64,000 bases of DNA from Patiria pectinifera (lineage: Eukaryota > Echinodermata > Asteroidea > Valvatida > Asterinidae). The DNA lies in assembly GCA_029964075.1 (NCBI GenBank), contig CM057133.1, forward strand, positions 10,316,699-10,380,698. Direction: 5' to 3'. Shown here in pieces: positions 9,656 to 64,000 of this stretch. The notes beneath the pieces are model-generated. The model was given only the letters and a program-made list of their open reading frames with translations. It searched no databases and was not told the DNA's origin. Position 1 is the first letter of the stretch. Every line of letters starts with the position of its first letter. Both the position numbers and the translations under genes were made by a program.

Positions 9656-12088
9656 CTAAAGTGCCATCATGCCATCTCCTTGCCCAAGATCTGGATGCGG
9701 TTGCCGTGGTAACTCATCTCTTGGCTCTTCAGTCCCTTGAGGAGGCTGGGGCATTTCTGGCAAGATGCTCTTGTGACAAAGCGGGCATTTGTCCTGCACA
9801 TACAGCCACCGGCGCAGACAGACGCTGTGGAAATAGTGTTTGCAAGGAGTAACTTTAGCAAACGTCATCTCCTCGAAGCAGATGACACAGACGTCGCGGA
9901 GGGAGGAGAGCTCTCCCTTGGTTGCCGAAGGAAGCGAGTTGATCTTACGGACCGCATCCCTGCGAGTGAGGAAGCTCTGCCATCCTGCCTGAGCTCGCTG
10001 GAAGACATTGAAGTAGCAATGGATGAGTATGATGGCTGCACCAAGAAGGTTGTAGTCACTGTGGAATGATTCCATCCCACCATAAAACAGGACCGAGAGC
10101 GCTATGCCAAATTCCATGACATGGCACATAGCATGGATGCCGTACACCAAGTCATCCAAACTCTCCCACGGTGTAGCGCGACGGTGATCGGCCATGAAGA
10201 GCAGGTAGATCGTCAGGGAACCTAGGGTCTGGATTGTGGTCAACAAGCAGCTAGATACGATAATCATCAGCCACAGTTGGGCTTCAAACACCACGAACAG
10301 CATGTAGCTCAGGTACAGAGGGGCGGCCATCAACGCTACGCACATGCTGAGTGCTCGGAAATGTTTCCAGGGACTTGGGTTGTTGGACGCAGCAAGAGCA
10401 AGAAGTACTGGGTCCAGTATTTCATATACTGATTGGATTGTTGAGGACAGGGCGATGTACATGAGCACACTCAGGAGGAGGATTCTCTCCAACTTCTTCA
10501 GCTCTAGCAGGCCCGTTTCCATGGCCAGCAGCATCACTGTGATGCCTTCTGTCCAACCACGATGTAGGAAAGTCTCTCCTCCAAGGCTGCTGAAACCCTT
10601 GAGATACAGCTTGCAGAGAAACAAGACAAGGAACGCCGTGTAAGACACTGTGTAGCACAGACCAACTAAGCTCCACGGACTCTCGCAGCAATCAGCGATG
10701 GCAGCGAATATCACCAACACCCAGTGCTCTCCGACAATGCGAAGGTCCTTTGTGGAGTAGTACACGTACAGCCGATGGACAAACAGCACCAGCCAGAAAA
10801 TCAGATACAGCATTGGCACAAAGAAACGATTGTACAACGCAAAGATGACGCTGACGATGCCGTAGAGTTCAACATACTCTTGGAGAGTGTTGTAGCCAAT
10901 CAGAGCCAGGCGGAACGGCACGAGAATATGTCTGAGCGTGAAGAGTGTCACCTCAGTCAGGGTCAAGACCTGGGCAACTTCATGCGCTGATTCTTGCACA
11001 TCAAGAGGCAGACCACTCAGTTTCGCAATCTGGGGTAGTGTGTATGCTGCGAAGGCCCATACATGCTTGGTCCCTATTAGACGCGCACAAGTCAGGCTGA
11101 TGACCACTTCTGCAAGGGTGAACGTCACCGCTGATACGAGAGAACTCTGGGGGACTGTGGTTTCACGAGACAGTGAGTAGTCCGATAGGAGATGAGCAGC
11201 CAGGAGCAGAAGACCAACAACGATGAATTTGTAGAGCTTGATCAACATTCTCAGCGGTAAGGCATGCAAGAGGAAAACCACAAAGTAACCTGAAATAAAA
11301 AATATAAAATAATACAACGTAAATAAACAACATGTAGGCTAATTATAAATAAACCACAATGTAACAACTACACAAAACATTCTACACAGAGTTGCAAATG
11401 TTGTAAGTAGGGGTTCTTTTCAACTTATTTTTTTTTTTTTTAAGATTCCCATATCTGGCCATCACTTGTCACCCTGTGCACAAACCATATGGATTACGAG
11501 ACAGGTCTGAAAATTTCTAAGCATTTTCTCAGTAAATACTTCAATATTTTCCCTGTTAAAAACTGACTTTTTAGGACATATTATTAACACTTTCTGATGG
11601 CTCATAGGTCAATGAAGAGAAAAATTAGTGATGGCCAGATACAGTAATCTTTCCCTTTTTGTATTTAATACGAATTTTAGAAAAAAATGTATTATTTAAT
11701 AATATTATAATAATATATAAATACTATTTTATTGAGCTGTTTTTCAGTTAAAAAACAAAAACACGAATCAACAAAAGTGAACCCAACGATTTTGAGCAAA
11801 AAACAATGAATAATAATTAATATATCCACCATTATTTTATTTAGCTGTTTTTCAATAAAAAAAACCCAACAAAATCAACAATAGTGAACCGAACCGACCG
11901 AGATACTGAGATCCTATCGTCACGGTGTGAGGCTCCAGCCCCCAGCCACTGGCCAAACTCTCCACCGTGCCGCGTATCTTGCGCCCCCGTCTCAAATTGT
12001 GGATGGCTTCCAGAATGAAGACGCTCGGTAGGCGAAGGATCACATTGGAAAACCGCCAAATGTGGAGTTGGCGACTGCTGATTTCCAT
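9656..12088 (-). CDS. RNF145: RNF145-like polytopic membrane RING E3 ubiquitin ligase
   Basis: Two coding exons: 12088-11899 and 11289-9656 (1824 nt, 607 aa), joined in phase 1. The N-terminus resembles the family's amphipathic start. Many hydrophobic segments follow, including FWLVLF followed by YYSTKD, which resembles human RNF145 (FWLVLF, YFSTRD). A RING-H2 at 531-569 has CVIC, CKHYFH, C and CPLC. A Pro/Gly-rich tail follows. Known family role: ER-membrane E3 ligase with a sterol-sensing-like region, linked to regulated degradation of HMG-CoA reductase and SCAP control. It lies head-to-head with the RNF139 paralogue about 1.25 kb away and shares its intron position and phase. The donor (GTCGGT) is weak; a second GT nine bases downstream would add three residues. 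The vertebrate YLYF motif is not conserved (LYKF here). Confidence 0.9.
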
Positions 12089-13341: not shown

Positions 13342-15844
13342 ATGCTGCACCAGATCTTCTACTATCTGCTCCAATATCACTACGACAAGATGATGTTTAA
13401 GCTGGGGCGAAAGGTTCAAGCTGTCCTGGGCGTGGCCCTGCGCATACCCTCGTTGTTCCTCATCGACGCCATCCTGAACCTACGCATCGACACGGGCCAG
13501 TTTGGGGTGGACCACCCAGTGTGGTGTGCAGCTGTTCTGGTTATAAGTAAGGACATTTTGTGGTTGTGAACCTGTCACTGGTATTCAAGACCGGTACATA
13601 CTTCACGTGAATGCAAATTCCAAGCAAATAGCAAATTTGAACCGTGCATTCACTACGAAATTTGCCAGTGCTGAAATGTGTTTATTAAACTTGTGTGAAT
13701 TCGCAGTGTTAAAAATTCACACTCGCGCTCGCCGCCTTTCGTGCCGAGTATGAACCAGTCTTTAGACCCCTTGACCCCTTGCCCTTGGAACGTTGCGTTG
13801 AAGTAGCATCATGTCCAGTCTTTGGCTGTAACACGAGGGGTGTGTCAATTCACAACTTCTGTGTGTCAAACAGTAAACAGGGTGTATCAAAGGAGCCTAA
13901 TAATAATAATATAGATAAAATAGTTTTCATCAAGCGCATATCACTGTAATGACAAAGCACACTGTACACAGTTTAGATTATAACCAATTTTGGTGTCATG
14001 GGATGATGTATTCAAGGGAAGGTTATTTTTACTCGTGCACTATCTTGTGTCTTTCAACAGGTCTTTTTGTTGCCATGGTGATGTTCTGTCTCGCTACTAA
14101 GACGCTTTTCAAGATCTACGTCCTGCTTCTTTGCCTCGGTACTTTGGCTAGTGCTGTGTGGTGGAACCATGTCATGCTTCTCAAGGTTGATCAGGACAAG
14201 AATTTATCTGACTGGGATGTCTTGGTGTCTATGACGAGTCAAGATCCGTCCTTCAGTGCAACAGTTACACCAGTTCAGATTCTGCTCAGCGTGGAGTTCA
14301 TTCTCTACATCATGGTGCAGATGTTCTACGCCTTCACTTACGTGGCTTGTATTACATTACTGCCGGAGCGTTTCACGCTGACCATTTGGCTGGCGATGTG
14401 CACCTATTTCATCTCACCAATGATGATCCGTCTGAGCCTGATGTATTACAGTCCAGACAACCTACCCTTCACTACCCTTGCCACCTTGCAAGCTTTGTCC
14501 GTTCTGGTCCCTTCCCTTGAAATGGCAGCGATATGCGTGTCCAATATCATGTATGGCGTTTTGCACGTGCCGCTTTGGTACACAACCTACCGGTTCATGC
14601 TACGCAATCTTGGCTTGAATTCCTTGCTTGAGAATGCGTGGGTCGAATTTCAAGTACCCAATGTTTTGCGGAGCTTTTGGCTCTTGCGGTTTGCAATACA
14701 TGTCCTGCAAATTCTTTTTGCATTTGTGTCTGACGTGACGCTGCCTGGGGTTATGGCAAGCAATATGGTGTTCTCAAATGGAAGTCACGTCATTGGCATG
14801 AATCCGAATAATAATTTTGCCTGGATGGCGTTGCTGGAGTTGGCAACCCATGGTTGCGATTCCACTCTAGCCGTCCTAGGGTTGACTGCCATCGTGTCAT
14901 ATCTGTCCTACTATCTTGGCAAATGGGCGGATAGACTTATGGGTGGGGATTCCGACGAAGTTGCCCACATTGGCACCGTCACAGCCATTCTGTTCTTCAT
15001 CCTTTCGCTCCAAACAGGCCTGCCAGGGCTAGAACCCATGAAACGCTTTGTTCGCCTCTTCCGCAATTTCATTCTCCTCATCACAGCTTTGTTGCATTTC
15101 ATCCACAACATGCTAAACCACGTGATGATGGCATTGAGTACATCTCATAACGCATCCGTATGGAAACACGCCCGAGCATTAAGCATGTCACTTCTACTCA
15201 TTCTTATCCCCGCCACCGTCATCACATACCTGTGGTCCTCCATCACCATGGGAACGTGGTTGCTAGCGGTGACCGCCTTCTGCTTGGAACTCATCATCAA
15301 AGTGACTGTCACCCTCATCATCTACACGCTGTTTCTCATCGACACGTACAGCGACAAGTTCTGGGAAAATCTTGACGACTACGTGTACTACATCAAAGCC
15401 ACGGGAAGCACCATAGAGTTCGTCTTTGGCATTTTCCTCTTTGGAAACGGTGTGTGGATCCTGTTCTTCGAGTCCGGTGGCATCATCCGCGCCATCATGA
15501 TTTGCATCCACGCCTACTTCAACATCTTCCAGCTCGGCAAGAATGGCTGGAAGAAGTTCCAGAATCGTCGCATGGCCGTGCATAAGATCAATGGCCTTCC
15601 CATGGCCACGGAGTACCAGTTAAGGCAGCACAATGACGTCTGTGCCATTTGCTACCAGGATCTCAACACAGCAAGAGTCACACCATGCCAGCACCTATTC
15701 CATGCACTGTGTCTTCGGAAGTGGCTGTACGTTCAAGACACTTGCCCATTGTGCCACAAGGAAATCATGCAGTATGTCAATAGCAACTCTGAAACAGAGA
15801 CAGAGGAACTAAATGGGGAAGATGGACTACTACATCAGCACTAG
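13342..15844 (+). CDS. RNF139: RNF139/TRC8-like polytopic membrane RING E3 ubiquitin ligase
   Basis: Two coding exons: 13342-13546 and 14061-15844 (1989 nt, 662 aa; human about 664), joined in phase 1. VALRIPSLFLIDAILN near the start matches the family N-terminus. About a dozen hydrophobic segments follow, with family landmarks GCDSTL, LFFILSLQTGL, ENLDDYVYYI and AYFNIF. The RING-H2 is at 596-634 (CAIC, CQHLFH, C, CPLC), with an acidic tail. Family role: ER-resident E3 ligase (TRC8) that binds sterol-regulatory partners and takes part in ER-associated degradation. An alternative start is the Met-Met pair 17-18 residues in. It lies head-to-head with RNF145; the single intron at the homologous position shows the two arose by inverted tandem duplication. 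Confidence 0.95.
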
Positions 15845-20843: not shown

Positions 20844-23800
20844 CTACTTGATGCCTTTTGCCTCCAGCTCCTTTCTTACCCTCTGAAGATACGTTGGATC
20901 TGGATAGCCATGCCTGAAAAAAAATTACAAACACAAATTTGATCAATAAATGCAATTCAAAAGTTTCTACGAGCATTTAAACACGATCAATGTTTATTTT
21001 CAAGGTTTGCTGGCATAGTGACTTTGGGCCTGATCCCTGGCCACATGGAATATGGTTTATGGCTTCTGACTAGCACCGGATGAACAAAAACACATTGGGA
21101 AATCACTAAGAATGAGGAAACTTCTGATTCTGCTTGTTTTTGACTCCAACTTTTCTGTCCTATTTTGGGGAAAGTCTACAAAATCTGCCTGGCCCACCAT
21201 CCTTCTTGTCTTGTGCTGTAAAAACAATTGATCACTATACCCATCTTGTGCGGTATGTTGTTCCTAAAATCTCCCAAATCACAATACACATGTACATGTA
21301 TATCCAATGATCTGTTGCTACTAGTCACGTTTTGTCTGTTGGCAAATATGTTGTTAAGAAAAGCGCCAACTATTGGCCGTTATTAGCAACCAACATTGAC
21401 TGTTTTGAATAGTGCCCTCATTATACAAATGTGTCAACCACCCCCCTCCCCTTCCCCCATCCAAATACAAATTGGTCTGGTAATGGCTGTGAAACAAGTC
21501 AACGTTAACATTTTTGAGGCATTTTTTTAAGAAGTCGGGGACAATGGAAGTCCGTCCCAAGCCTGTTAATTCCCTCTCTCTTAACTTACATTTCTGACCC
21601 GCCCGTTTGGCTCGTCTTGTGATGCACGTCGTTCCACACGACCGTGTTATCTGCGCCAGTTGTGACTGATCGACCAATGGTGAACAAAAGTCGGGCATCG
21701 AAGGCCGTCTTCAATAGCTTGAGTACCTCTTGGCCTTGCCTGTTGTTTGGTAGGTAGGCCTGGCGTTGGGTTCCTCGGTACTGCATTCCTGGGTTAGGGT
21801 GTTCATCCTGAGAAGAATTAGAACAAATAAAGTCACAAACTGATTTGCGAGTCTACAACACGTCAAATAACATGTCAAATAACATGTCAAATAACATGGC
21901 CAAAAACAAGTCAAATCAAAAGTCTATTAGTCAAATCACAAGTTCACAGCACATCAAATCACAAGTAATCACAAGTAATCACAAGTCCATATAAATGAAA
22001 ATCAAGTCAACCACAAGTGAGGTCTCAAGCAGGAGTAGGACAATTTTTGCTACAGTTCATTTGAACACTAAACCTGTGACTTTTGAACTCATGACTGAAG
22101 GACATGTGACTGACATGTGACTGACATGTGACTGATTTGTATGACAACAACTTTTGAGCATTAATGACGGTTCCTAGCAAAAATGCCTTGGAGGCGACAT
22201 AGATTGCACGTACAGTTTGGATTCCGTTCAGAAATGTGTAAGTAATGATAATAGTTCCACAGCCTGGGTATCCGGGGAGATCTGAGGAAACTGTAGTGTA
22301 GTTCATGCTACCGTCTGGCTGGTCACCGTGTAACTTGCCATAACTCACACCACAGATGGGACAAATTGGCTTGAACTGCAAGAAACAAGGCAAAAATGAG
22401 CCTTTCCTTTGTGGCACCCCAGACAAATAAAAATACAAGCAATACAACATGTTTGGCCATTCAAAGAATGAGGTGCATACAGTTAACATTCTGAATAATT
22501 AATTATTAGACTGAACATGCTAAAAGACAATTACAATGATCACAGACTGCTAGTAACATTCATAATTTAAAACTAGTACAGAAGATAATACAAATTCAGC
22601 TATTTTGTGATATCCCTTGAACATGGGAGTAAAAGTAATTGTTAAGTGGAAAGTTCCAGATACATGTAATAGAAATGTGAAACAAGAAGTATGATAATAT
22701 CCTTTGAATATCAAGAAAAGTTGTGGTAGAAAATTACAGTACAGCACAGGGCTTACCTGGAATGCCTTTTCAATGCAAGAGGAACAGAATGTATGTTTAC
22801 ACTGAAGAGACTTTGGGTCCTTGATCTTGTCCATGCAGATGGCACACATTGGCTCCTGTGGTCTCAAAACAGGAGGTGAGCTTTGACCGATGACTTGAAG
22901 CTCATCCGTTTTACTTGCCTGCTTCCTTGAATGTCTGCGTACAGTCCTTGAGCTGTCGGTGACGGATGATCGACTGGTGACCGTTGCTGTATCCTTTGGG
23001 AAGATCTGCCGTTTTGTTTCCTGCTCTCTTGAGAGACGTCTTAGGATCTCCTCATGAGGAGCTTCCTCGGCCACCAATTCCTTGGAGAATGCCGAGTTCC
23101 TGGGGTACGTCGAGTTGGAGATGGACATTCCATTTACTCCACCAGCCCTGGCATAACCTTGTGTGACGACATCCACTGATTGGGTGCAGCCTAACATGGG
23201 TTTTCTCCGTGTGCTTGTTGAGTCTTTAACAACACTTGTCTTGATGCGGTAGTCGTTTTTGGTGTCAATACGAGAGGCTCGAGCTCCGACGATCGGCTGC
23301 CTGACTTTAGGTGGCTTCTTCTCAGCATGCCCATCAGGCGTAGAGTGCATATGTTTCATGCAGTTCTGGCAGATGTCCAGTCCTTTCCCTATGCACTTTA
23401 CACAAAGGGGATTCTCGCAATCCCTGCAGGTCAGGAGCAAGTGTTTGGTGGAGCAGAGACACACATCACATCTTTTCTCTGGCTCCTTCCTGGTTTTTGC
23501 CTTGCTGCATTCTCTGCACCTGCCAACATCCAAGCGCGCGTCCTTGCAAATCTCACAGATAAGGTGCTCACAAGACTTTCTTTTGGACAGATTTCTTGGT
23601 GAGGAGCAGACAAAGCACTTCTGACGTGGACGTGACCTGTCTAGGCTCTGGGTGCGTCTTACAGGCCTCTGTAGCTGCTTCTGCCTGGCCCCTTTATCTT
23701 GTTCCGACAACAAGCGATTGAGCTCACCCTCAGTTTTTCTTGATAGTTCAGGGGAGGGTGTGGCTCTTGAGAAGGCATCAAGAAGCTCTCTGACTTGCTT

Positions 23801-26800
23801 CTCCTGTCTGGTTTCCTTAGGTGAAGCATTTGGGATATTTCTGGCACTGGGTGCTTGCTCTTGACCTCTCTCTCCAGTCAGATGTGGTTTCCTCCCACGT
23901 AATGGATACTCTTTCAGCTCCCTACCTGGTGATGTATACAAGCCCGATGTTCTGTAAGCCCAGCGACCCTCTCCTGCATCATCCATATCATCCCTAGGCA
24001 GGTAAGGTAGTGATGTACTACGAACCATGGGTGGCCGACTGGAAGGAAGGCTATAGTCATCCATCCTTCTATACTTTAGGTTTCCATGAGGTAGGTCTTC
24101 GTCGGAGGAAAGGCTCTCTCTCTGCTGCGACCTTGACAGTCTTGCAGAAGCCTCCCGTTGCCTATGGCTTCTCCCCCTCCTACTCACCCCATCTTCATTT
24201 GCCGCTGGAATAGTTCGGTTCCTTTCATAATCTCCTTCTACGTTATTCCCGGGCTCCAACAAAGTCTCTCTCATGTCTGTATCATCTTGTCCTTGAACAG
24301 CCTCAGAGTTGGCACTTGCTTCCTGACAAAGTGTTTGAATCATGATGTCCTGCGCCTGCCTAACAGTCCCGCTGTCTAAGTCTACAATGTCCACTTTTTG
24401 AAGGATACCATGAGGGGAAGTCAGTCGCTTTCGGTTAACATCCAGCAAAGCCTTGCAGATCTCTTCAACGCACACTTCCAAAGGCACTCCAAAAATACCT
24501 GCAAAGAAACAAGCAATCAAACTAAAACTGGTTATAGGTTTCTTTTAAGAACCACTTGATTTTAATACAAAAGTATAAATGAAGAAAAAGAAATGATAAA
24601 CTACACAACAGAGTCCACAAACCTGAGCTGATGAACGGCATGGCTAAGGATGACACTTGAAGCTTCTCGTCTGCAGTCCGAAGACACTTCACAATTGTGG
24701 CTTTCAGGGTTTGACGGACCTGCAGCTTGTTTGGGTAGTCTCCCCACTTTGGCCCCACGGCATGCAGCACAAAGGTGCACGGCAAGTTCCCTGAGCCTGT
24801 GTGAACAACTTTGGCTGGGTACAGCAGGCCATGATGGGCAACGTACCTGTTGCATTCTGCTTGCATGCCTTCTCCGGCAGCATCACGTATGGCCCCAGCG
24901 ACGCCGGCTATATTTGACAAGGTCTCATTTGCAGCATTCACAATTACATCAACTTGCATCTCTGTGATATCCCCACAGAAGAGCCGGACACAGATGCCAG
25001 AATTAAGATCAAGAATCAAACAGCCATCTTGGAACTTGTAAGTGACGTCTCCGAGGGTTCCCTTCCAAACTTCAGCATCTCTCGTTTGGGTAGGATCATC
25101 ATTTTGGATACGATGCTTTGCATCTGGTCTTGTCCTGACTCTCGCAGACTGGATATCACTGGGATCTTCTAATAACCTGCTGTATCCATTCAGCATCTTT
25201 AACTGTTCATTCCTTTCTGCGTGTTGCTGTTCACCCACAGAAGGTAAGGGATTCTGGGAGGGCAGATGGCCAAGAACATTCTCTTCACTAAGCAAGTGAT
25301 CCTGGCTATTTGGATCTCCTCTTTCTGCATCAGGTAGCCCATTCACATCCAGAGTATCTGTATTCTGTGTCAGGGCCATTTTTTGTCCAGCTCTGGGAGA
25401 TACAGGACTGAGAGAGCTGAATCTCAGGTGATAGAGTCGATTCACCATGCTGTCACTACTTAGACTTTCGAGGTCTACATCATCATCAACAAACTGTGAC
25501 ATCGACTCAGGCCGAGAGAGGCTTCCACGCAGCCGCCTACGAATCAAATCTTTGGCAGAGTTGACATTGTGACGACCCTGGCCATAAATCAACACTCTGG
25601 AGCCCACAACTCTGAACAAGAGGTCACTGAAAGAGTGCTCCATTTCCTGGATGATATCTGCCAGAGTGTTACTTGTTACATTTTCGAACTCTGCAAAGCT
25701 TACAACACGATGCTCTAGACCGCTAAACACCTCCTGGTAGAAATTTGCAAATGCATCTTTTCCCTGCTGAGCAGCCGTCTCGGAGACAGCTCCCACTGAT
25801 TCCACTTCAACCATGTACACGTCGCTGTCCAGATTCCCTCTTACATTAAACTTGATGCTGTAGTTTTGCTCGATGTCGCAAAGAATAGTGTGCTTCTGTC
25901 TCTGAATAAAAGCGAAAACGCCTGGATCTACAGGTATTACATTTGCCATATTGCTTGCGTCTTCCACAAGATTTCGCCTGTCTGACTCTGTGACTTCGTC
26001 GGCTACCCCTGTGACCTCAGCGCCAGCTTCTCTCCCAGAAGGTGATGCTGCAGGCTCAGCTTCTGAAGCAGTGCTAGGATTGAGAATTCGTCTGGGGCCT
26101 CCAATGTGTTGGTAATCCACTGCTTCGTCTTCGGATCGTGCAGTTGGTCCAGTGAGTCTACCCTCCAGTTGGGTCTGTGGAGTACCGTCTACTTCAAGAT
26201 CTGAAGGATCTGAATGAAGCCGATCTGTAAGAGGAAACACTGGCTCATTTCCAGAGGTGGGAAGCTGTGTCTGAGGAGTACCGTCAACTTCATTGGAACC
26301 ATTATGCTCGCCTCCGAGTTGAGAATACTCTCCTGGTCTATCTACCTCAGTGGTGTTCTCATCTTGCCTGACTTCCGGAACTGGCTGAGCAGATGGTGAT
26401 TCAACCCTCCCACTAGCAAAAGACTGCTCTGTATTCTGTCTGCTAACTCCGGACTGACCCTGCAGACCAGATGAATCCACTGCAGACCCGATACCTCTAC
26501 TGGTGTGCAGACCTGACGAATCCACTGGGGTCTTCTTCAATGAATCAAGTACCAACATTTTTGCTAGACGAACATCACTCTCATTTGATCCGTAAATGAG
26601 AACTTTCTCCTTTGTCACAGTGAGTAAAACAGTTTGGTAAAGCTCGTGGATCATGTCAACTGTTTTCCTAAGGGATTCTGGATTGAATGTCATATCTGTT
26701 GTTGTGATGGCCCGGTGGTTCAGTGTAGAGAATATCTCAGAGTAGAAGTCCACGAACTCATCATGGGCCTGCGCGATCTCAGCAGTTTCTCTGGTTGGTG

Positions 26801-29539
26801 TTATCTTCAGCAGGGCACTTTCAACATCAGTGTCGTCACTATCTCTGGTTGAATGCATGGAGAACTTGACTCCAAACTTCTCCTCAATTTCACGGATGGG
26901 GTCGCTCTGTTTAAGTAAGATGTAACTGAAGACTCCGGGGTCAACTGGCAGGGATCCCATACCTTCCACAAACTCTTCATTATCACCATCAATGGCTCTA
27001 TCATCAGTGATGGTAGCACCTGATTGAGGAGACGTGGTAGACTCCCTCTCCAAATCATCCCTATGTGACAAGGTGTCATTGTCATCATGGACTGAGCTCC
27101 TGTCTGAGTCTGCTTCAAATTGTTCCCGTCCACCATTCTCCGAGTCCACGCTTGCCAATGGGGTTTGTGGGACCTTAACATGCCTCATGTAATCAAGACT
27201 GGAGCCAACAGAAAGCCTATCCTCACTTCTCTCAGAGGACATAGTTGAAAAAGCTCTCCCAGAAATGTCTTCTGGTGTCCGAGAGTCTCCGTCTGATGGA
27301 GGAGGTGTGCTCATCACATCAGCATTTCTGTGCAGTGTTGGGTCAGTTGAGATTTCTTGACTGGCTGGGAGACGCATGAAGTCATCTTCTCTACTCTGAA
27401 CCTCTTCTGTGATTTGAGTCGTAGGGTTAGGAGATTCAGAAGGCTCTAGGTGATGCACAGAGCCTACAGACGCAGAGTTGTCCTGAGGTGTCACATCTAT
27501 TGAGGAGTTTGGGTGGTGATGACTTAATGATGCAACACTTTCACCATCAACTCCCAGATTGACCCTATTTGATGGTCCTTCAAATGAAGCTGCAACTTTT
27601 ACATTCCTTCCTTCAAATTTGGTTTTGGTGCCATCTTTAGGGGCTTTTCTTGCACCACGTCTCCCACCTCTGCCACTCTCCACAGATTCACCAGCTACTG
27701 GGGCAGTGGGATCGCCTTCTAAGTTGTGTCTGGGGACAGTGTCTTCTGTAAGCCTTAGTCTCTCAGAATCGTTGCCTTCATTAGTGAGGCCTCTTGTTTC
27801 TTCATGTGGACTCCCTTGGGATCCATTAACAGCTGATGGGGAAGTAACGTCCACTGTTCTCTGGTCTTTGTCTCTCAGACGTTCCTCATTAAGCCGTGGC
27901 CTGTTGGTTTCATCAACCATCCATTCTTGCAAGAACTTGCGGGCGTTCTGTAACTGGTACCAGGTCCCAGTGAGCACATACAACTGTTCCGGCTGTCCTC
28001 CATATCTGTCTCGCTCGTCCACTGTACCACACTCCACTCCAGACTGCTTCTCAAGGAGTCGGGAGAAGTCTTGGGAGTTGAAGGGAAAGAGTTCCGTGAC
28101 ATCTGGATTGATGACGGCCTTCATGGATGTGAAAACCTGTAGTTGAGATAATTGATTGAAAATATATTACATGTGTACCTCACAAAAGGCATGACATAGC
28201 TATGACACTCTTTGCAGTCTGTCGTGGTTATTTGGACACCACATGTACCAGCTCCAGTACTTAACTCTTAAGAAACTACTTGATGTACTTACTTGAGACA
28301 GGAATGGTTGCATTGTCAGGTGCTGTCCTTCAAAAAGAAGTCTCTTCCGCATCAAGGTAACCATGGCTGGGTTAAGAGAAAAGGGATTAATAAAAACGAG
28401 AAACACAACTGAAAAAAAAAGATAAAAAAGGAAAGGATCTGATTCAAACATTATATTAAAAAAATAAGATTGGTGGAAGTTGTAGTAAAGATGTGCATAA
28501 TGTCTACTTCAAACTGTTAAACTTAATATATTAGTTGCAAATACTTACTACAAGGTTTTTTATTTAAAAAGAAACTTCCTGAATCCACCAAAATCTAACA
28601 AAATCATACATTGTTTACAGTACGGATAAAACCAGGAAACAAGCCCATATAAAGCAATAGCGACCAGGCTAAAGAAAACAAAACCGACCAAACGTTGATG
28701 ATGAGGCCCCTGAGAAATGTGTCCCACCTTTTTCATCTTGGAACGTTGCCAGTGCCTGTCGTGGTTTTGAGGAACTCACTGGGTAGATGACTTTCAGGAG
28801 GTGGCCTCTGTCGTGCCCACTTGACTCAAGCTCTGAAGGAATAGTCAAGGAAGAGATAAGATTTACCAAAGACATTGACTGGAGTGGGATTCCAACCTGC
28901 AACCTCCAGAATGCTGTATTTGCATTTCGATGTGTTTAAAGCTGTGTTTGCCACGCTCGTCAACATATTTGATTATTACTATTAATACAAACTGTCCTGA
29001 ATCCTGCAGTTTTACTACAATTTTTTTTTTCACACACCTTACAAAGTTAGTTAATAAATTTGCCACTTGTACGTTTTATTTCAACCCAAAATAACCCCTT
29101 TTGCCTTTTTCGGATATCTGCAACACTCTGAAAAAAAATTGACTTTGTTTTGGGCACTGTAATAAACAGATCCACTTTGCGAGCAGACTTGCTCTGATCC
29201 CTACATTATCGGTACCAACTGTGGAGCGGGAACTAAGGTAATAATTCAATAACTAAACATGTGCCGACATTTTGGCCGATATTTTTGGTCGATATCTCAT
29301 TCAAAAGTGAATATCTTTGTACTGCTAGAAAATACTAATTTAAAAAAGGAATCTAGTTTCTAAAAAAAACACACACATTTATTCAGAATTAATTTTAACA
29401 TTGCTTTTCCACAAAAAAAATCATTTAAATAGCCCTTCAATGACCAACCTTGCTGAAGAAATCCTTCCAGTGTTTCTACCGAAGACGCCGGTGGAATGTT
29501 GGAGATGAAGACACTCCGTCGCTTAGCAACGGCTGCCAT
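20844..29539 (-). CDS. DTX3L-like E3 ligase fused to a macrodomain (RRM/KH/macro/zinc/RING/DTC)
   Basis: Coding exons, in order: 29539-29449, 28832-28728, 28366-28293, 28136-24623, 24498-22757, 22375-22214, 21807-21590, 20913-20844. They total 5976 nt and 1991 aa with all phases matching. Residues about 8-90: RRM-like start ([12 protein letters not shown]). About 484-624 and 822-959: two related KH-like repeats, each opening PVDPGVF. About 1137-1320: macrodomain with [28 protein letters not shown] and PFISSGIFGVP, split by an intron. 1556-1642: two Cys-rich zinc modules. 1813-1850: RING (CAIC, CKHTFC, CSSC, CPIC). About 1850-1991: Deltex C-terminal domain ending in GYPDP. Ser/Asp-rich disordered stretches lie between. 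Inferred role: ubiquitin ligase acting on or reading ADP-ribosylated targets in DNA damage or antiviral-type responses, as DTX3L-PARP9 does. No PARP catalytic domain is visible. The family assignment is secure; a 1:1 orthologue name is not. Confidence 0.93.
21835..22135. repeat. Degenerate short tandem repeats in intron 6 of the DTX3L-like gene
   Basis: Units such as CATGTCAAATAA (three copies near 21860-21895), TCACAAGTAA and GACATGTGACT (three copies near 22100-22135) are repeated. These are noncoding and explain open frames seen here. Confidence 0.55.
28865..28965 (-). mobile_element. tRNA-derived SINE fragment (family C)
   Basis: On the minus strand it reads CAGCATTCTGGAGGTTGCAG followed by a B-box-like GGTTGGAATCCC. 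The same CAGCATTCT...AATCCC arrangement occurs at 29655-29735. It lies in intron 1 of the DTX3L-like gene. Confidence 0.5.
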
Positions 29540-53800: not shown

Positions 53801-56044
53801 TATCCCAACTCACAATCCCAACTCACATACCCAACTACAAGTTTGTCACATTACGTAAGCTGCATGAATCTGTGGCATCATGACTGTACCGCGTAGAGTG
53901 CGCGGGACCTGGCCAGCTGTAAGGCGGCAAGGCATGCACACGCACGCTGTCAAAATGTCAAGTTGGATAACGGTCGAGTTGTCCGACCCCATGGGTACAA
54001 AGCCTATGGAGAAAACAACGTGCACAATGTCTATGGAGAAAAGAACGTGTACAAACCCTATGGAGAAAAGAACGTGTACAAACCCTATGGAGAAAAGAAC
54101 GTGTACAAACCCTATGGAGAAAAGAACGTGTACAAAACCTATGGAGAAAAGAACGTGTACAAACCCTATGGCGCAAAGAACGTGTACAAACCCTATGGGG
54201 CAAAATGCATCTTTGATGTGACTCTTGATGACGTCACGATCACGAATTTCGTCTAGGACCATCTGTGGGTGGTGGTCCAAGTATGAATTAAGTTTAAAGT
54301 CGATCGGATTTACGAAGATGCCAAACTGGAGTGTTTTAAAACGTGTACAAAACATATGGGCAAAAATACATCTTTAATGTGACGTAACCTGACACCTGAT
54401 GACGTCACGATCACAAATTTCTTCTAGGACCATCTGTGGGTGGTGGTCTAAGTATGTACCAAGTCTGAAATCAATCGGATTTAAAAAAGTGGCAAAGTGG
54501 ATTGGTGGAAGAAACGTGTGTTAAACCTATGGAGAAAAAGTCTGAAAAAGGAGAAGAAAAAAGAAAAAAAAAAATCTTAACGAAAACAAGAGCTGTTTCG
54601 GTGTGTCACCGAAACAGCTAAAAAGTCTGAAAAGTTGATGAAATCTGAAAGATACTTTTCTTTCGACACTGGTGTCTTTTTCTAGGATTCAAGATTTCAG
54701 GTAACCGTGTCACGCCCCAACTATCGCATCGGTCCCAACTATAGTTGGGCCTGTCCCAACTATAGTTGTCCTGTCCCAACTGTAGTTCCATTGTTGGGCC
54801 GGCCCATCTATAGTTGGGCCACTCCGATCTTTTTATTTTGCGGTGTCCCAACTATAGTTAACATTAATGTACAACCATAAAACGTTCCCTACAGCTCTGA
54901 TACACGTCTGACTTAACTGGGGACCACTGAAATTAGCTATTGATGGGGCGAATCTATAGTTGGGCCACCCCAATCTTTTTATTTTGCGGTCCCAACTATA
55001 GTGTACATTGTTGTACGATTATAAAACATTCCCTACAACTCTAATAATACACATCTGACTTTACTGGGGGCCAATGAAATGATCTATGGGTGGGGACCAT
55101 CTGTAGTTGGGCCACCGCAATATTTTTATTTGGCAGTCCCAACTATAGTTTACATTGATGTACGACTATAAAACATTCTCTACAGCTCTGCTTACATGTC
55201 CGACTTGGGACCTTGACATTAGCTATGGGTGGGGCCCATCTATAGTTGGCCGGCCATGGCAATCTTTGAATTTTGCAAAATGTTGCTGGATAATAAAACC
55301 CAGCAACTGGACAACTCATCCAACTAGGCAGTACCACGTGACCGGCCAGCCTTGCGGCATGCATGCACGACGAATACACGGTGCCAGCACCGCGGAACAT
55401 TTAATCCAACAAGATCTATCAAGCATGAAGCATCCGGCACAACTCCAGTCCTAACTATAGTTGGGCCGACCCAACTGCCGCACTATAGTTGGGACAGTCC
55501 CAACTATAGTTGGGACCGATGCGATAGTTAGGGCGTGACAACCGCAAGTGCGTCACGGAGGGTTAGTGTCCAGAGAGATTATGTCTTAACTTACCCTTGG
55601 GTAACGAGAGTACAATCTGGACAGTTGCGGTAACTTGAAGAATTGTCCTAGTCTCTTGGTACAGCTTAGTGCCGATGATGTAGTGTGTCGGACCTTTTAT
55701 TGAGGAAAAAAAAGTCTGATCATAATAAAGTAAACCACACCCCCCTCCCAAATAAAAAGAGGAAATTCAAAAGCCCAACATTTGCATGTGGCAACTCAAA
55801 ATAGAACTATCACTGACTATTTATGATGACCTGCTGGTGCTACTATTTACTAGGCTAGTACAGCACAAAGAAGAAATATTCAACTGTTAACACTACTCAC
55901 ATTCATGGCATTTTGATGGATAACATCCAGGACATGACGAGGTTTTCGACTACAGAACCGGCTCGCAGAGGAAAACCCCTGAATCAAACACTGCTGATTA
56001 CAGTGAGAATTCAAAGAGCTTCTCCAAGCATTTCGCAGAGCCAT
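47834..56044 (-). CDS. COX15: COX15, haem A synthase for cytochrome c oxidase assembly
   Basis: Nine coding exons: 56044-55901, 52606-52440, 51540-51418, 51111-50925, 50428-50264, 49787-49706, 49301-49147, 48386-48273, 47965-47834. They total 1269 nt and 422 aa (human 410), all phases consistent. Exon 1 encodes a basic, Ser-rich mitochondrial presequence with few acidic residues; it is inferred from composition, Met start, GTGAGT donor and matching phase, across a 3.3-kb intron. The core has several membrane segments and family motifs: [29 protein letters not shown] (H165), ASHLGS (H238), CAHGT (H277), [27 protein letters not shown] (H338) and AAHQSGSL (H399). These conserved His include the haem ligands. 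Role: converts haem O to haem A in the inner mitochondrial membrane. The exon 3 donor was chosen as GTAAGT because it preserves alignment length. Confidence 0.95.
48100..48242 (-). mobile_element. tRNA-derived SINE copy (family B)
   Basis: Shares with the copy at 6090-6245 a tail motif (minus-strand TGTCCTTGGGCAAGACACTT) and a degenerate B box (GGTTTGAATCC). It lies in the last COX15 intron. Confidence 0.6.
48555..48715 (+). mobile_element. tRNA-derived SINE copy (family D)
   Basis: An A-box-like TTTAGTGGGTAAGACA, B box GGTTCGAGTCC and downstream AAGCAAGCTTGTAA match the copy at 44960-45095. It lies antisense in COX15 intron 7. Confidence 0.7.
52215..52322 (+). repeat. Interspersed repeat, copy 2
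   Basis: Contains CATAATCTGGAACCGGTTCC, then ACCCGGTTCCGATACACACC. It matches 35755-35850 in order and orientation with an extra ~12-base segment in the middle. It lies in COX15 intron 2. Confidence 0.6.
53990..54212. repeat. 27-bp minisatellite in COX15 intron 1
   Basis: CTATGG starts at 54004, 54031, 54058, 54085, 54112, 54139, 54166 and 54193, exactly 27 bases apart. The core unit reads CTATGGAGAAAAGAACGTGT then ACAAACC. Central copies are nearly identical and edge copies diverge. Because 27 is a multiple of three and the unit lacks stops, several frames on both strands stay open; I do not regard these as genes. Confidence 0.9.
54181..54520. repeat. Roughly 165-bp direct duplication adjoining the minisatellite
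   Basis: Two successive copies run from CGTGTACAAA...CAT through GATGACGTCACGATCAC and CCATCTGTGGGTGGTGG to a CGGATTT stretch, offset by 161-171 bases. Each begins with a partial minisatellite unit, so array and duplication belong to one repetitive element. Confidence 0.7.
54591..54619. repeat. Perfect 13-bp hairpin flanked by direct repeats
   Basis: AGCTGTTTCGGTG, a TGT loop, then the exact reverse complement. AAAAAGTCTGAAAA occurs on both sides (about 54534 and 54620), so the purine-rich segment and hairpin may be one inserted unit with target-site duplications. Confidence 0.6.
54708..55540. mobile_element. Nonautonomous TIR DNA element (MITE-like), 833 bp
   Basis: The two ends are inverted copies: about 58 bp starting TGTCACGCC with roughly two mismatches. 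ACCG flanks both sides (AACCG if the final A is counted in the duplication). The interior has three tandem units of about 146 bp (54812-55243). CCCAACTATAGTTGGG, a perfect 16-bp palindrome, occurs in the TIRs and half-copies recur inside. No transposase is present. It lies in COX15 intron 1. Confidence 0.85.
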
Positions 56045-60074: not shown

Positions 60075-60189
60075 TTCTGACGAAATGGCTGATATGCTAG
60101 ATCGTCCAACTCGGGCGGGTTGTGATAGTCAGGAGGATCAATTCACTATTACTTGCAGTTTCTCAGTCAGCAACTTGTACAACTTGTTG

Positions 60190-60890
60190 ACTTAACCCAA
60201 ACGCCAAAACATCTGGAGTTACATCAAGGGAGGAGGTCGGCACTCAGCCTGCTGATGATGCTGGTACTTCCACCAGGCCGTCTACAAGTCAGATCCCCCA
60301 AACATCTGGAGTTACATCAAGGGAGGAGGTCGGCACTCAGCCTGCTGATGATGCTGGTATTTCCACCAGGAATTGCACCAGGAAGTCTTCAAGTCAGATC
60401 CCCCAAACATCTGGAGTTTCATCAAGGGAGGAGGTCGGTACTCAGCCTGCTGATGATGCTGGTACTTCCACCAGGCCGTCTAGAAGTCAGATCCTCCTAA
60501 CATCTGGAGTTACATCAAGGGAGGAAGTTTTGGCACTCAGCCTGCTGACGATGCTGGTACTTCCACCAGGCCGTCTACAAGTCAGATCATCCAAACATGG
60601 AGGTTGGCACTCAGACTGCTGATGATGCTGGTACTTCCACCAAGCCGTCTACAAGTCAGATCCCCCTAACATCTGGAGTAACATCAAGGGAGGATGTTGG
60701 CACTCAACCTGCTGATGATGCTGGTACTTCCACCAGGCCGTCTACAAGTCAGATCCCCGGAACATCTAGAGTTACACCAAGGGAGGATGTTGACACTCGG
60801 CCTGCTGATGATGCTGGTACTTCCACCAGGCCGTCTACAAGTCAGATCCCTCTAACATCAAAACTAGTGATTATTGATCTGTTTTCGTAA
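60190..60890 (+). pseudogene. Degenerate 93-bp repeat array, copy 1 of the death-domain gene linker
   Basis: About seven units correspond to the 31-residue repeat of the gene at 62195. The homologous reading frame is broken: a 2-base insertion near 60530 and a 19-base deletion near 60590 change frame, a 12-base duplication lies near 60375, and the last unit runs into a stop at about 60888. No death-domain exon follows before the second copy begins. It could be a decayed paralogue or remnant exon. Confidence 0.7.
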
Positions 60891-60899
60891 TACACTACA

Positions 60900-62194
60900 C
60901 ATATGGCCGGACCCATTTAATGTTGGATCAAGTGGACTTTCATACCAGCGTCAACAACACCTAGCAGAAAAACTTAACCTTTGATTCAACTAATTGACAT
61001 AATGGAGGTAGGGATCCGAGACCTGCTTCGTATTAACCAACCTGTGGTTAATAATTGGCAGGTTTGAAATGTAAGATTACCTCCGCAGCTTTGCATGCAA
61101 TATTTTTGTACACTGATATGGACGCAGGTTGCAGGAACACGTCTATTCTTGTAAGGCTAAAGAACTATATGCTTGTAAAGAGTCTATATAAACATCACGT
61201 CATAAGTAATGAAAATATTATTTATGGAATTAGCAAACGCTAAAAAGTTTGAAAAGTTTGGAACTTAGGGAAGCATAAAAGGCCATCGCACTCCACCCGA
61301 CAAAAAAAAATAGAGTTCTAGCTGATACATGCTCCCCCTGACCTTGCGAAACAAACCAATGATACACTACATTTAGCGAATGATTTCTAACCACCGTGGA
61401 ATGAAACAAAAGCACTTAACCATCGATAAAGGCGTGTCCTTATGGGTGCAGACCAGTAAATCGGTCCGAAATTGCCTACGCCGGCCAAATCACGATTTGC
61501 ATGCCCTCAAAATCTTCAGTATTTGAGCATGCTGTGGGCCATGAACTTGAGGGTTTGTAAAAAATATGGGTGGAAGCCGTGCTCAGGACTGAGAGCTTGC
61601 AGTTCTGTGTAATTTGGATGTAATTTGGACCCTAAAAGCGCTCTATTTTTCAATGGAGTGTAGGCATCGTTTTTCAAAATGGCGATGGGCTTCAGGACTG
61701 TTTTCAGGGGTAATCATCTTTAGATGGAAATTTCTCCTAAATGTCATCAGTTGACCCCCAAAAAATTGAAAAGAAAATGAAAGATGATGAAATAAGCTTT
61801 AATTTGATGTGTGTCTCGAACACCTTGGAGAGTAGTGAGTATTTTTCCCGAATTTCTGAAGTGGGAGCATTTACCATTGGGGTCTATGGACGTTTACTTA
61901 TATATCTGCTACCTTATCCGTCCGGATGGGGATTGGGGAGGCTTTCAATTTTCCCGATCCTTCCCGGATCGTGCCTGACCAATCACAAACGTGACAGAAT
62001 GAGGTGGAGGCAAGAGTTTTCAGAAAGTTTAGAATTCACAAAAAACAGCGTCGGCCAAGCCTATACTGCCACAATGTAATTTACGTTCACAGACAGCTCA
62101 AAGACGCTGCAAATTATTTTTTGTTTCATAGATGATATCCGTCAAGTTGGGTCCCACATTTATGAAGAGGGGACTGTCAAACTGACTTCACAAA
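60900..62194. other. Copy 2 leading part and region upstream of the death-domain gene
   Basis: 60900-61300 repeats 59125-59570. From 61300 to 62194 I see no recognisable exon; an open frame at 61741-62079 (112 codons) has no domain I know. An in-frame stop lies four codons before the ATG at 62195. Confidence 0.5.
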
Positions 62195-64000
62195 ATGAAG
62201 CGAACGTCTGCACATCAACAAGATTCTGACAGGACCATAAAAACACCACGACAGGCCGTTGGCAATCAGCCTACAGATGATGCTGGTACTTCCACCAGGC
62301 CGTCTACAAGTCAGATCCCCCAAACATCTGGAGTTACATCAAGGGAGGAGGTTGGCACTCAGCCTGCTGATGATGCTGGTACTTCCACCAGGCGATCTAC
62401 AAGTCAGATCCCCCAAACATCTGGAGTTACATCAAGGGAGGAGGTTGGCACTCAGACTGCTGACGATGCTGGCACTTCCACCAGGCCGTCTACAAGTCAG
62501 ATCCCCCAAACATCTGGAGTTACATCAAGGGAGGAGGTTGGCACTCAGACTGCTGATGATGCTGGTACTTCCACCAGGCGATCTACAAGTCAGATCCCCC
62601 AAACATCTGGAGTTACATCAAGGGAGGAGGTTGGCACTCAGACTGCTGACGATGCTGGCACTTCCACCAGGCCGTCTACAAGTCAGATCCCCCAAACATC
62701 TGGAGTTACATCAAGGGAGGAGGTTGGCACTCAGACTGCTGATGATGCTGGTACTTCCAACAGGCCGTCTACAAGTCAGATACCCCAAACATCTGGAGTT
62801 ACATCAAGGGAGGAGGTTGGCACTCAGACTGCTGATGCTCCTGGTACTTCCATCAGGCAGTCTACAAGTCAGATCCCCCAAACATCTGGAGTTACATCAA
62901 GGGAGGAGGTTGGCACTCAGACTGCTGATGATGCTGGTACTTCCACCAGGCCGTCTACAAGCTACGCCGTTGGAGTGTCAGAAGACGCATCAAGTTGTAC
63001 GTACCAAACTTAATTATTCGCTCTTCTAATAAAGGCAAATTATTTGTCATCTTTGTTTTCACACTCTAAAAACTTCGTGATCAAACTGACCCGTAATCCG
63101 GGTCGAAATTGGCCTAACCGGGTGCCAAAAATGACTACTGTCCACCTTGTTTTAACACAGAAAAGTATATATTTTGACCCAGAAAAGTGTATTTTTTTGA
63201 CCCCAAAAAGGGTAAGCAAATTTGGACAAGTCAATCTGACCAGAGAACCGTGCATCGAGTTTCTCTTCCCACGCAGTGTCGAATACATTTTGAAGTCATA
63301 AATCTTTTTTTTTTTGATATTGTAGCGGAAATATCACTGCCGACTCTCTCAGATGTCGCTCGGAAGCTTGGTCACGATTGGAAGGATCTTGCAATACAAC
63401 TTGGCTTCGAATCCGCAGACATCTCGACCTTCGAGGCCAACGACCCAGGTAATGTCAACTATCAGAAATTCCAGATGCTCGTAGCATGGAGACAACGGCA
63501 GCCCGCCATTGGAAGTCAGATGGACGTGTTGTGTGCAGCATTGGCCAGGATCAACAGAAATGACATCGTCACGTGCCTGCAAGGTAAGTCCAGTTAATTG
63601 TTATTTTTGTATCTGCCCATGCATGATCGTAATACGGGTCTGGTGTCAGTCGGCAAATTTGCTTGAAACCCAAAGAAAACGCCCCTGTTGCTATATTTAT
63701 TACTCTTAAGCTGGCTGCAACCAGTGTGACCCTGCGAGAACTGTAGTCGGGCCGCAAACAACTCGAAATTTTTCACGTACTGAATTAATCCATTACAAAA
63801 CCTAGGCCGACTTTTGGTTCGATTTTTCGTTCAAGTTAAAATGTTTTGTTTTAGTAGCCCGTACCAATTACAAAGAAATAAAATGGTTTCGGAAAAATCT
63901 TAAAGGAGTTAGTGCATAATTGAGAAATTTGGCCTCTTATTCCGAACTCATTACATTTTTTCAGCTCATTCTGATTCGTTTCAGGGCCTACTTGTGGATT
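62195..64000 (+). CDS. Death-domain protein with eight 31-residue Ser/Thr-rich repeats (3' end beyond window)
   Basis: Exon 62195-62996 (phase 1 end) joins exon 63326-63583 (phase 1 both sides); the gene continues past 64000. The first 25 residues are basic and polar (MKRTSAHQQ). Eight repeats of 31 residues follow, each with ADDAGTSTRPSTSQIPQTSG and SREEVGTQ. The second exon encodes a death-domain-like helical bundle: SDVARKLGHDWKDLAIQLGF, then WRQRQPAIGSQ and LARINRNDI. Death domains mediate homotypic assembly in apoptosis and innate immune signalling; the repeats are probably a flexible, modifiable linker. ATG 62195 is the first in-frame ATG after a stop, but an upstream exon is possible. 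No homologue can be named. The repeat exon may itself be under-assembled or length-variable. Confidence 0.78.
62270..62960 (+). repeat. 93-bp coding tandem repeat, eight units
   Basis: Units start at GATGATGCTGG-type positions 93 bases apart and are nearly identical. Two variants alternate (GATGATGCTGGTACT with CAGGCGATCT, GACGATGCTGGCACT with CAGGCCGTCT), which shows a higher-order 186-bp period in part of the array. The unit is a multiple of three and keeps the death-domain frame open. Confidence 0.92.

Follow-up and report, generated by a model that had tools for sequence, protein, structure and literature searches.

A 64,000-nucleotide stretch of the genome of the echinoderm Patiria pectinifera (the window) carries on its minus strand a gene that joins a macrodomain and a predicted DTX3L-type ubiquitin ligase, with a RING finger and a Deltex C-terminal domain (DTC), in one coding sequence. 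The rebuilt gene model consists of eight exons (29539-29449, 28832-28728, 28366-28293, 28136-24623, 24498-22757, 22375-22214, 21807-21590 and 20913-20844), and its two main open frames, of 1214 and 664 codons, are far longer than expected by chance. All seven introns are GT-AG, the exons are entered in phases 0, 1, 1, 0, 1, 0, 0 and 2, and the spliced product is 1991 amino acids (aa) long with its sole stop codon at the end. A previous reading of this DNA from its letters alone (the sequence-only reading) had proposed one frame through eight phase-matched exons, and the rebuilt model agrees with it.

Exons 1-3 (28293..29539) encode an RRM-like domain (aa 1-90). Exon 4 (24623..28136; aa 91-1261 plus one base) encodes KH-like units and most of the macrodomain; exon 5 (22757..24498) encodes the end of the macrodomain, a linker, a Cys-rich module and most of the RING; and exon 6 encodes the RING end and the start of the DTC, which extends to exon 8. 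As the sequence-only reading had pointed out, the macrodomain is split by a phase-1 intron (24622-24499, 124 bases), and the exon downstream of it, which bears the larger part of the RING, opens with the second half of the macrodomain. The joins FISS/GIFG, KAFQ/FKP, GIQT/DEH and GGSEM/HGY lie in gap-free alignments to human PARP14, to paralogs or to human DTX3L. The join between exons 3 and 4, which links the RRM to the KH units, has as its sole independent support the exon-4 start common to the paralogs, and the N-terminal exons 1-3 with the RRM are the part of the model that is held least securely.

Both modules of the proposed ligase half matched Pfam models in the spliced protein. A C3HC4 RING finger at aa 1812-1850 (zf-C3HC4_2, E 1.1e-9; 22352..22849, interrupted by the intron 22756-22376) stands directly before a DTC at aa 1859-1990 (E 1.3e-60; 20850..22327), as in Deltex E3 ligases, and the exon join within the RING aligns without gaps to the paralogs. 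In the comparison of the DTC with solved Deltex proteins, bit scores were 181.7 for DTX3L, 153.7 for DTX2 and 141.8 for DTX1 among the best 60 of 154 matches, in which neither DTX3 nor DTX4 had a row. The Ala-Arg insertion, which is reported to separate the WWE-class Deltex proteins from DTX3 and DTX3L (EMBO Rep 2024, PMC11467253), is not present in the alignment. With the DTC nearest to DTX3L in this comparison and one KH_DTX3L unit over the Pfam cut-off, the gene is, by its sequence, a DTX3L-type RING-DTC ubiquitin ligase, as had been proposed.

The catalytic positions of the DTC, His1958 and Glu1984, are kept, and in the alignment they correspond to His582/Glu608 of DTX2 and H707/E733 of DTX3L. 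The DTX2 residue numbers were placed on the chain by counting from a length which we take to be 622, and the histidine assignment is independent of this length because the HH pair is complete. These residues are reported to be needed for ADP-ribose (ADPr) ubiquitylation both in DTX2 (PMC7615817) and in DTX3L (EMBO Rep 2024, PMC11467253).

The macrodomain (aa 1135-1311; 24350..25004), likewise foreseen by the sequence-only reading, matched the Pfam Macro model at aa 1156-1273 with an E-value of 1.1e-25. Among solved structures it scored best with macrodomain 1 (MD1) of human PARP14 (3q6z, 104 bits), followed by PARP9 (9qyd, 84.2 bits), which was taken as PARP9 MD1 by its NAANEDL loop, and the next score was 70.6 bits. 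Identities to PARP9 (35.5%) and PARP14 MD1 (35.0%) are level, and those to exons of the same genome are 31-32% for macro-1 and 27-34% for macro-2. The bit scores suggest that the domain is most like macrodomain 1 of the macro-PARPs. Hydrolase-type macrodomains are described as having Asn or Ser and Gly in loop 1 and a hydrophobic followed by an aromatic residue in loop 2 (Delgado-Rodriguez 2023, PMC10221186). The macrodomain of this gene keeps NAAN in loop 1 (NAANE) and Ile-Phe in loop 2 (SGIFG), and by that published description it looks hydrolase-competent.

Five paralogous loci, defined by a strong DTC match with a macrodomain at most 2 kb upstream, were found on the same contig (C5). Each has Macro, RING and the first 39-40 DTC positions in one frame, of 851 (L009), 834 (L010), 795 (L011), 831 (L014) and 880 codons (L016), and since these frames are uninterrupted, splicing is not needed to link the three modules. 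Their identity to this gene in BLAST pieces is 28-34% for the macrodomain, 36-44% for the RING and DTC start and 58-65% for the next DTC exon; the aligned macrodomains are 26-28% identical. The VFT start equivalent to that of exon 4 follows directly after AG in all five, and all five have the intron between the G(T/I)Q(S/T) and HP motifs. The dN/dS values (ratios of nonsynonymous to synonymous substitution rates) for the six pairs among four of the paralogs, with L011 left out as too distant, are 0.30-0.46 for the macrodomain, 0.26-0.42 for the RING with the beginning of the DTC, and 0.62-0.96 for the linker that separates these parts; as both values are lower than in the linker, the macrodomain and the RING-DTC start are both kept as protein.

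The first error to be considered in such a gene, as the sequence-only reading had stressed, is a mis-joined model, in which a macrodomain gene lies beside a separate DTX3L gene. This explanation is hardly credible here and was rejected; nothing was found in its favour. Introns cut inside all three domains (macrodomain, RING and DTC), relatives can be aligned across the joins, and the five paralogous loci hold macrodomain and RING in one frame free of introns. For the same reasons, and because the paralog frames extend into the DTC start, the link between macrodomain, RING and DTC in one predicted protein is safe. Together with the exon borders common to the paralogs, the dN/dS values and the presence of KH units and most of the macrodomain in exon 4, this speaks for one gene from the KH units to the DTC.

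Further modules lie on either side of the macrodomain. KH_DTX3L was found in two stretches of the spliced protein (best at 488-608, E 3e-10). Unit 1 (aa 480-640; 26487..26969) passes the Pfam cut-off when scored alone (31.9 vs 27.4 bits), and unit 2 (aa 815-975; 25482..25964) is 34% identical to it. An AlphaFold2 (AF2) model made with the two copies aligned (mean predicted local distance difference test score, pLDDT, 75.4; predicted template modelling score, pTM, 0.62) has two KH-like folds in tandem, in the order beta-alpha-alpha-beta-beta-alpha and then beta-alpha-beta-beta-alpha. Two such folds in each unit fit the published architecture of DTX3L, an RRM followed by five KH domains (PMC11080071, PMC13224862). 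No GXXG was found between helices 1 and 2 of the model. When the model was compared by VIA-align, KH proteins were among the rows for both halves, with Z mostly 7-8, and unrelated proteins stood at an equal level; the comparison of the unit with solved structures by sequence gave two rows only, with E-values of 0.14 and 0.36. At the N-terminus, RRM_PARP14_3 matched aa 8-90 with an E-value of 0.0077 when the full protein was scanned and of 1.4e-4 for the N-terminal piece. A tblastn comparison of the N-terminal exons with the paralogs gave E-values of 0.02-0.09 in L010 and L011, and an unrelated row in L025 was equally good (0.05-0.06).

The Cys-rich module proposed between macrodomain and RING (aa 1556-1643; 23354..23617) has a cluster of cysteines (Cys 1556-1641), the first half of which fits a RING-like C3HC4 spacing and is followed by further Cys pairs, and no Pfam model matched it. 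The best row among solved structures was BRE1 (E 0.12), an AF2 model was too poor to be used (pLDDT 48.7), and visual inspection of the five paralog frames did not show the module.

DTX3L RING-DTC is reported to ubiquitylate ADP-ribose on peptides and nucleic acids, and PARP9 MD1 and PARP14 MD1 to take ubiquitin (Ub)-ADPr off RNA, a coupling of making and removing in PARP9-DTX3L that was called paradoxical by its authors (Zhu 2023, PMC10810221). On a Glu-ADPr-Ub peptide, PARP9 MD1 is described as efficient (PMC13061329). We consider it probable that the Patiria gene provides in one protein a DTX3L-type RING-DTC ligase with a macrodomain of its own, which would ubiquitylate ADP-ribose and bind or remove the mark in cis. 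The fused coding sequence, its paralogs and the catalytic residues are observed; from them we infer the activities, the partners and the order of steps as follows. The KH pairs, and perhaps the RRM, would mediate assembly, either of the protein with further copies of itself, with nucleic acid, or with mono-ADP-ribosyltransferases of PARP14 type, for which this contig also has genes; in DTX3L, KH2-3 are reported to contact PARP14 and KH4-5 to contact PARP9 (Kar 2026, PMC13224862), and another report places both contacts on KHL4 (PMC11080071). The ligase would be held at ADP-ribosylated targets, where RING and DTC would put ubiquitin on the 3' hydroxyl of the target ADP-ribose. The tethered macrodomain would bind the ADP-ribose mark and, in this copy, could cut it off, acting in trimming or proofreading, so that writing and trimming of the ADPr-ubiquitin mark would reside in one chain. 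The paralogs, which have this fusion and are devoid of the hydrolase residues, would act as reader-ligases.

It is also possible that the macrodomain is a reader only, which holds the ligase on mono-ADP-ribosylated targets and leaves the mark in place, as proposed for PARP9-DTX3L and the androgen receptor; we regard this as a substantial alternative, although we would not call it probable. The paralogs point in this direction, as all five have Asp or Thr at the position of the loop-1 Asn and no aromatic residue in loop 2, and yet the macrodomains of the four that were compared have dN/dS values of 0.30-0.46. PARP9-DTX3L has itself been described as a reader of the ADP-ribosylated androgen receptor. 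The copy in this gene, however, keeps the NAAN and Ile-Phe that have been tied to hydrolase activity (PMC10221186). The sequence-only reading had proposed that ADP-ribose reading and ubiquitylation were already coupled; as the macrodomain of this gene keeps hydrolase-type residues, what it termed reading may be erasing.

Several results weigh against a self-editing ligase of this kind or against the details of its make-up. The five paralog macrodomains look inactive from their loops, so catalysis would not be a family-wide trait, and PARP14 MD1, the best-scoring relative, is reported to be weakly active on the Glu-ADPr-Ub peptide (PMC13061329), though active on ADPr-Ub RNA (PMC10810221). The highest macrodomain identity of all was to the bacterial protein TTHA0132 (36.4% over 129 columns). 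A phylogeny had been suggested as a check, and in a macrodomain tree of 19 rows the five paralogs and the L020 macrodomain joined firmly (100/99), while the macrodomain of this gene was left unplaced; the tree does not show a single origin of the fusion, which is likely from gene structure. The flanks of the macrodomain are linker-like by composition, unlike the split KH described around the macrodomain of PARP9/14 (PMC10450202). The RRM-like and KH-like modules of the sequence-only reading hold for KH unit 1, and both the RRM (22.3 bits, cut-off 24) and KH unit 2 alone (20.6 vs 27.4 bits) fall below their Pfam cut-offs. KH_DTX3L was found, at an E-value limit of 0.01, in one of the five paralog frames (L011, E 2.7e-4), with 21.2 bits and thus also under the cut-off. 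Finally, among the strong DTC matches of the assembly, three of the nine places on C5 have no close macrodomain (8-33 kb off) and both places on C19 have none nearby, macrodomain proximity having been sorted for the 11 strong ones of the 33 matches. A placement of the macrodomain within a split KH, as in PARP9/14, was considered separately and discarded, with no sign of it by a composition index; this index is crude and likewise marks the beginning of exon 4 and the Cys-rich module as disordered.

The genomic setting bears on the origin of the fusion. The 613 Mb assembly has 33 DTC matches, many of them single exons, of which 11 are strong (E 1.1e-23 or better), nine on C5 and two on C19. One of the C19 places is DTX2-like (62% identity to DTX2 and 36% to DTX3L over 77 columns). 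In six of the nine C5 places, this gene included, a same-strand macrodomain starts 1.3-3.0 kb upstream. C5 also has 51 of the 55 macrodomain matches and eight of the 35 PARP ADP-ribosyltransferase (ART) matches, so DTX3L-type and PARP14-type genes share this contig; exons on it were assigned, by their order and loops, to macrodomains 1, 2 and 3 of genes resembling PARP14, and a WWE exon follows these. In L026 and L028, the first ART exons of such genes reach 15.9 and 16.8 bits, under the PARP cut-off of 26.7. The genome scans gave no counterpart of the vertebrate PARP9 adjacency at the locus, with no other macrodomain or ART match in the 64-kb window.

The sequence-only reading had called the gene a "Rosetta stone" for the PARP9-DTX3L complex. 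This is supported in part: a macrodomain and a DTX3L-type ligase are in one chain, and a literal fusion of the two genes was rejected. PARP9 is described as a duplicate of PARP14 restricted to vertebrates (Perina 2014, PMC4245714; Delgado-Rodriguez 2023, PMC10221186), present in jawed vertebrates and reported as absent from lamprey and non-vertebrate metazoans (Delgado-Rodriguez 2023, PMC10221186); with PARP9 reported from vertebrates only, a single-chain gene in a non-vertebrate is not a fusion of DTX3L with PARP9. Moreover, the Pfam scan of the 1991-aa protein found neither an ART domain nor a second macrodomain. Either DTX3L once had its own macrodomain, the task of which later moved to PARP9 in vertebrates, or this lineage gained a macrodomain, perhaps from the PARP14-like genes on C5, and one genome does not tell the direction of change.

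A lineage-specific gain, in which a PARP14-like macrodomain recombined into a DTX3L-type gene, is nearly an even prospect, and the fusion would then be silent on the ancestor of vertebrate DTX3L-PARP9. Consistent with such a gain, PARP14-like macrodomain exons lie scattered among the DTX3L-type paralogs of C5, the three remaining strong DTC places there have no macrodomain nearby, and the macrodomain stands between linkers and not in a split KH. However, the PARP14-like macro-1 genes have their exon break, as judged by eye, at another position than the intron of this macrodomain, and the low identity between the macrodomain of this gene and those of the paralogs speaks against a recent gain. 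That the single-chain form is the older one appears to us rather unlikely. In that case an ancestral DTX3L with a catalytically competent macrodomain would have been a single self-editing enzyme, able both to ubiquitylate ADP-ribose and to strip off the entire ADPr-ubiquitin mark, and the macrodomain would have left DTX3L in jawed vertebrates, where PARP9, newly arisen by duplication of PARP14, would have taken over its job in trans. If this were true, the paradox that human PARP9-DTX3L both makes and removes ADPr-Ub would reflect an ancient design and not an accident of complex formation. PARP9 and DTX3L together are reported to resemble PARP14 (Kar 2026, PMC13224862), in keeping with an old relationship of these genes.

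The protein shares with DTX3L the KH_DTX3L units, the RING and the DTC without Ala-Arg insertion and with catalytic His and Glu, may share the RRM-like start (weak here), and differs from it in the added macrodomain and Cys-rich module between KH units and RING and in its long linkers. Like the PARP9-DTX3L complex it joins a macrodomain, probably of MD1 type, with a DTX3L-type ligase, in one chain, with one macrodomain and no ART. As in PARP14, RRM-like and KH modules precede a macrodomain, the best score of which is with PARP14 MD1, whereas the second and third macrodomains, the WWE and the ART of the PARP14 set were not found by the Pfam scan, and the C-terminus is formed by RING and DTC. 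U-box clade-3 PARPs of Dictyostelium also combine a ubiquitylation domain with clade-3 PARP modules in one chain; they are described with an N-terminal U-box and a PARP domain, and the part of the description at hand mentions no Deltex C-terminal domain (Perina 2014, PMC4245714).

Among the titles and starts of abstracts listed, with protein databases not searched, no description of a fusion of macrodomain and RING-DTC was met, and protein databases may well contain predicted examples already. In humans the two tasks are reported to be split, with DTX3L making ADPr-ubiquitin and MD1 of its partner PARP9 removing it (PMC10810221), and here both modules are in one chain, which offers a simpler setting in which to examine the joint ADP-ribose/ubiquitin mark. 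Together with the paralogs devoid of hydrolase residues, this protein would allow the roles of reader, eraser and writer to be told apart by means of simple constructs, and comparison across animals can test how the vertebrate PARP9-DTX3L complex arose. Five further copies among PARP14-type macrodomain exons on C5 hint at an expanded ADP-ribose/ubiquitin module in this animal; an immune role for it would be a guess by analogy with the vertebrate proteins.

Further observations concern the relatives of the gene. The DTX3L-type and PARP14-type cluster at C5:19.08-20.36 Mb (L009-L016 and L020) has mirror-imaged halves; aligned DNA pieces of L012 and L013 are 87-95% identical, and others, such as L011 and L016, are about 80% identical in short pieces. 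This may be either an assembly duplication or a real inverted duplication. Between L009 and L010, dS is 0.12 in the N-terminal part and 0.77-0.95 from macrodomain to RING, which suggests gene conversion or exchange between copies. RING-DTC exons without a nearby macrodomain occur in L012, L013 and L015, where upstream exons were not found. L020 (5767-7083, plus strand) has a 439-codon frame with a paralog-type macrodomain and, among the DTC matches, no plus-strand DTC downstream on C5; it is either a macro-only relative or a broken copy. On C14, a 1094-codon frame (L022:3412-6693, minus strand) has repeated segments and a C-terminal macrodomain (E 2.6e-14).

Elsewhere in the window, two head-to-head genes resembling ubiquitin ligases with TRC8_N and RING (9656-11338, minus strand, and 13919-15844, plus strand) each consist of one long frame. 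A short tandem repeat at 53846-54373 reads as FSIGFVHVL units in one frame, and a second frame gives NPMEKRTCT. At 60129-63597 on the plus strand, TSGVTSREEVGTQTADDAGTSTRPSTSQIPQ-type repeats are followed by a frame with a Death domain (E 3.3e-13).

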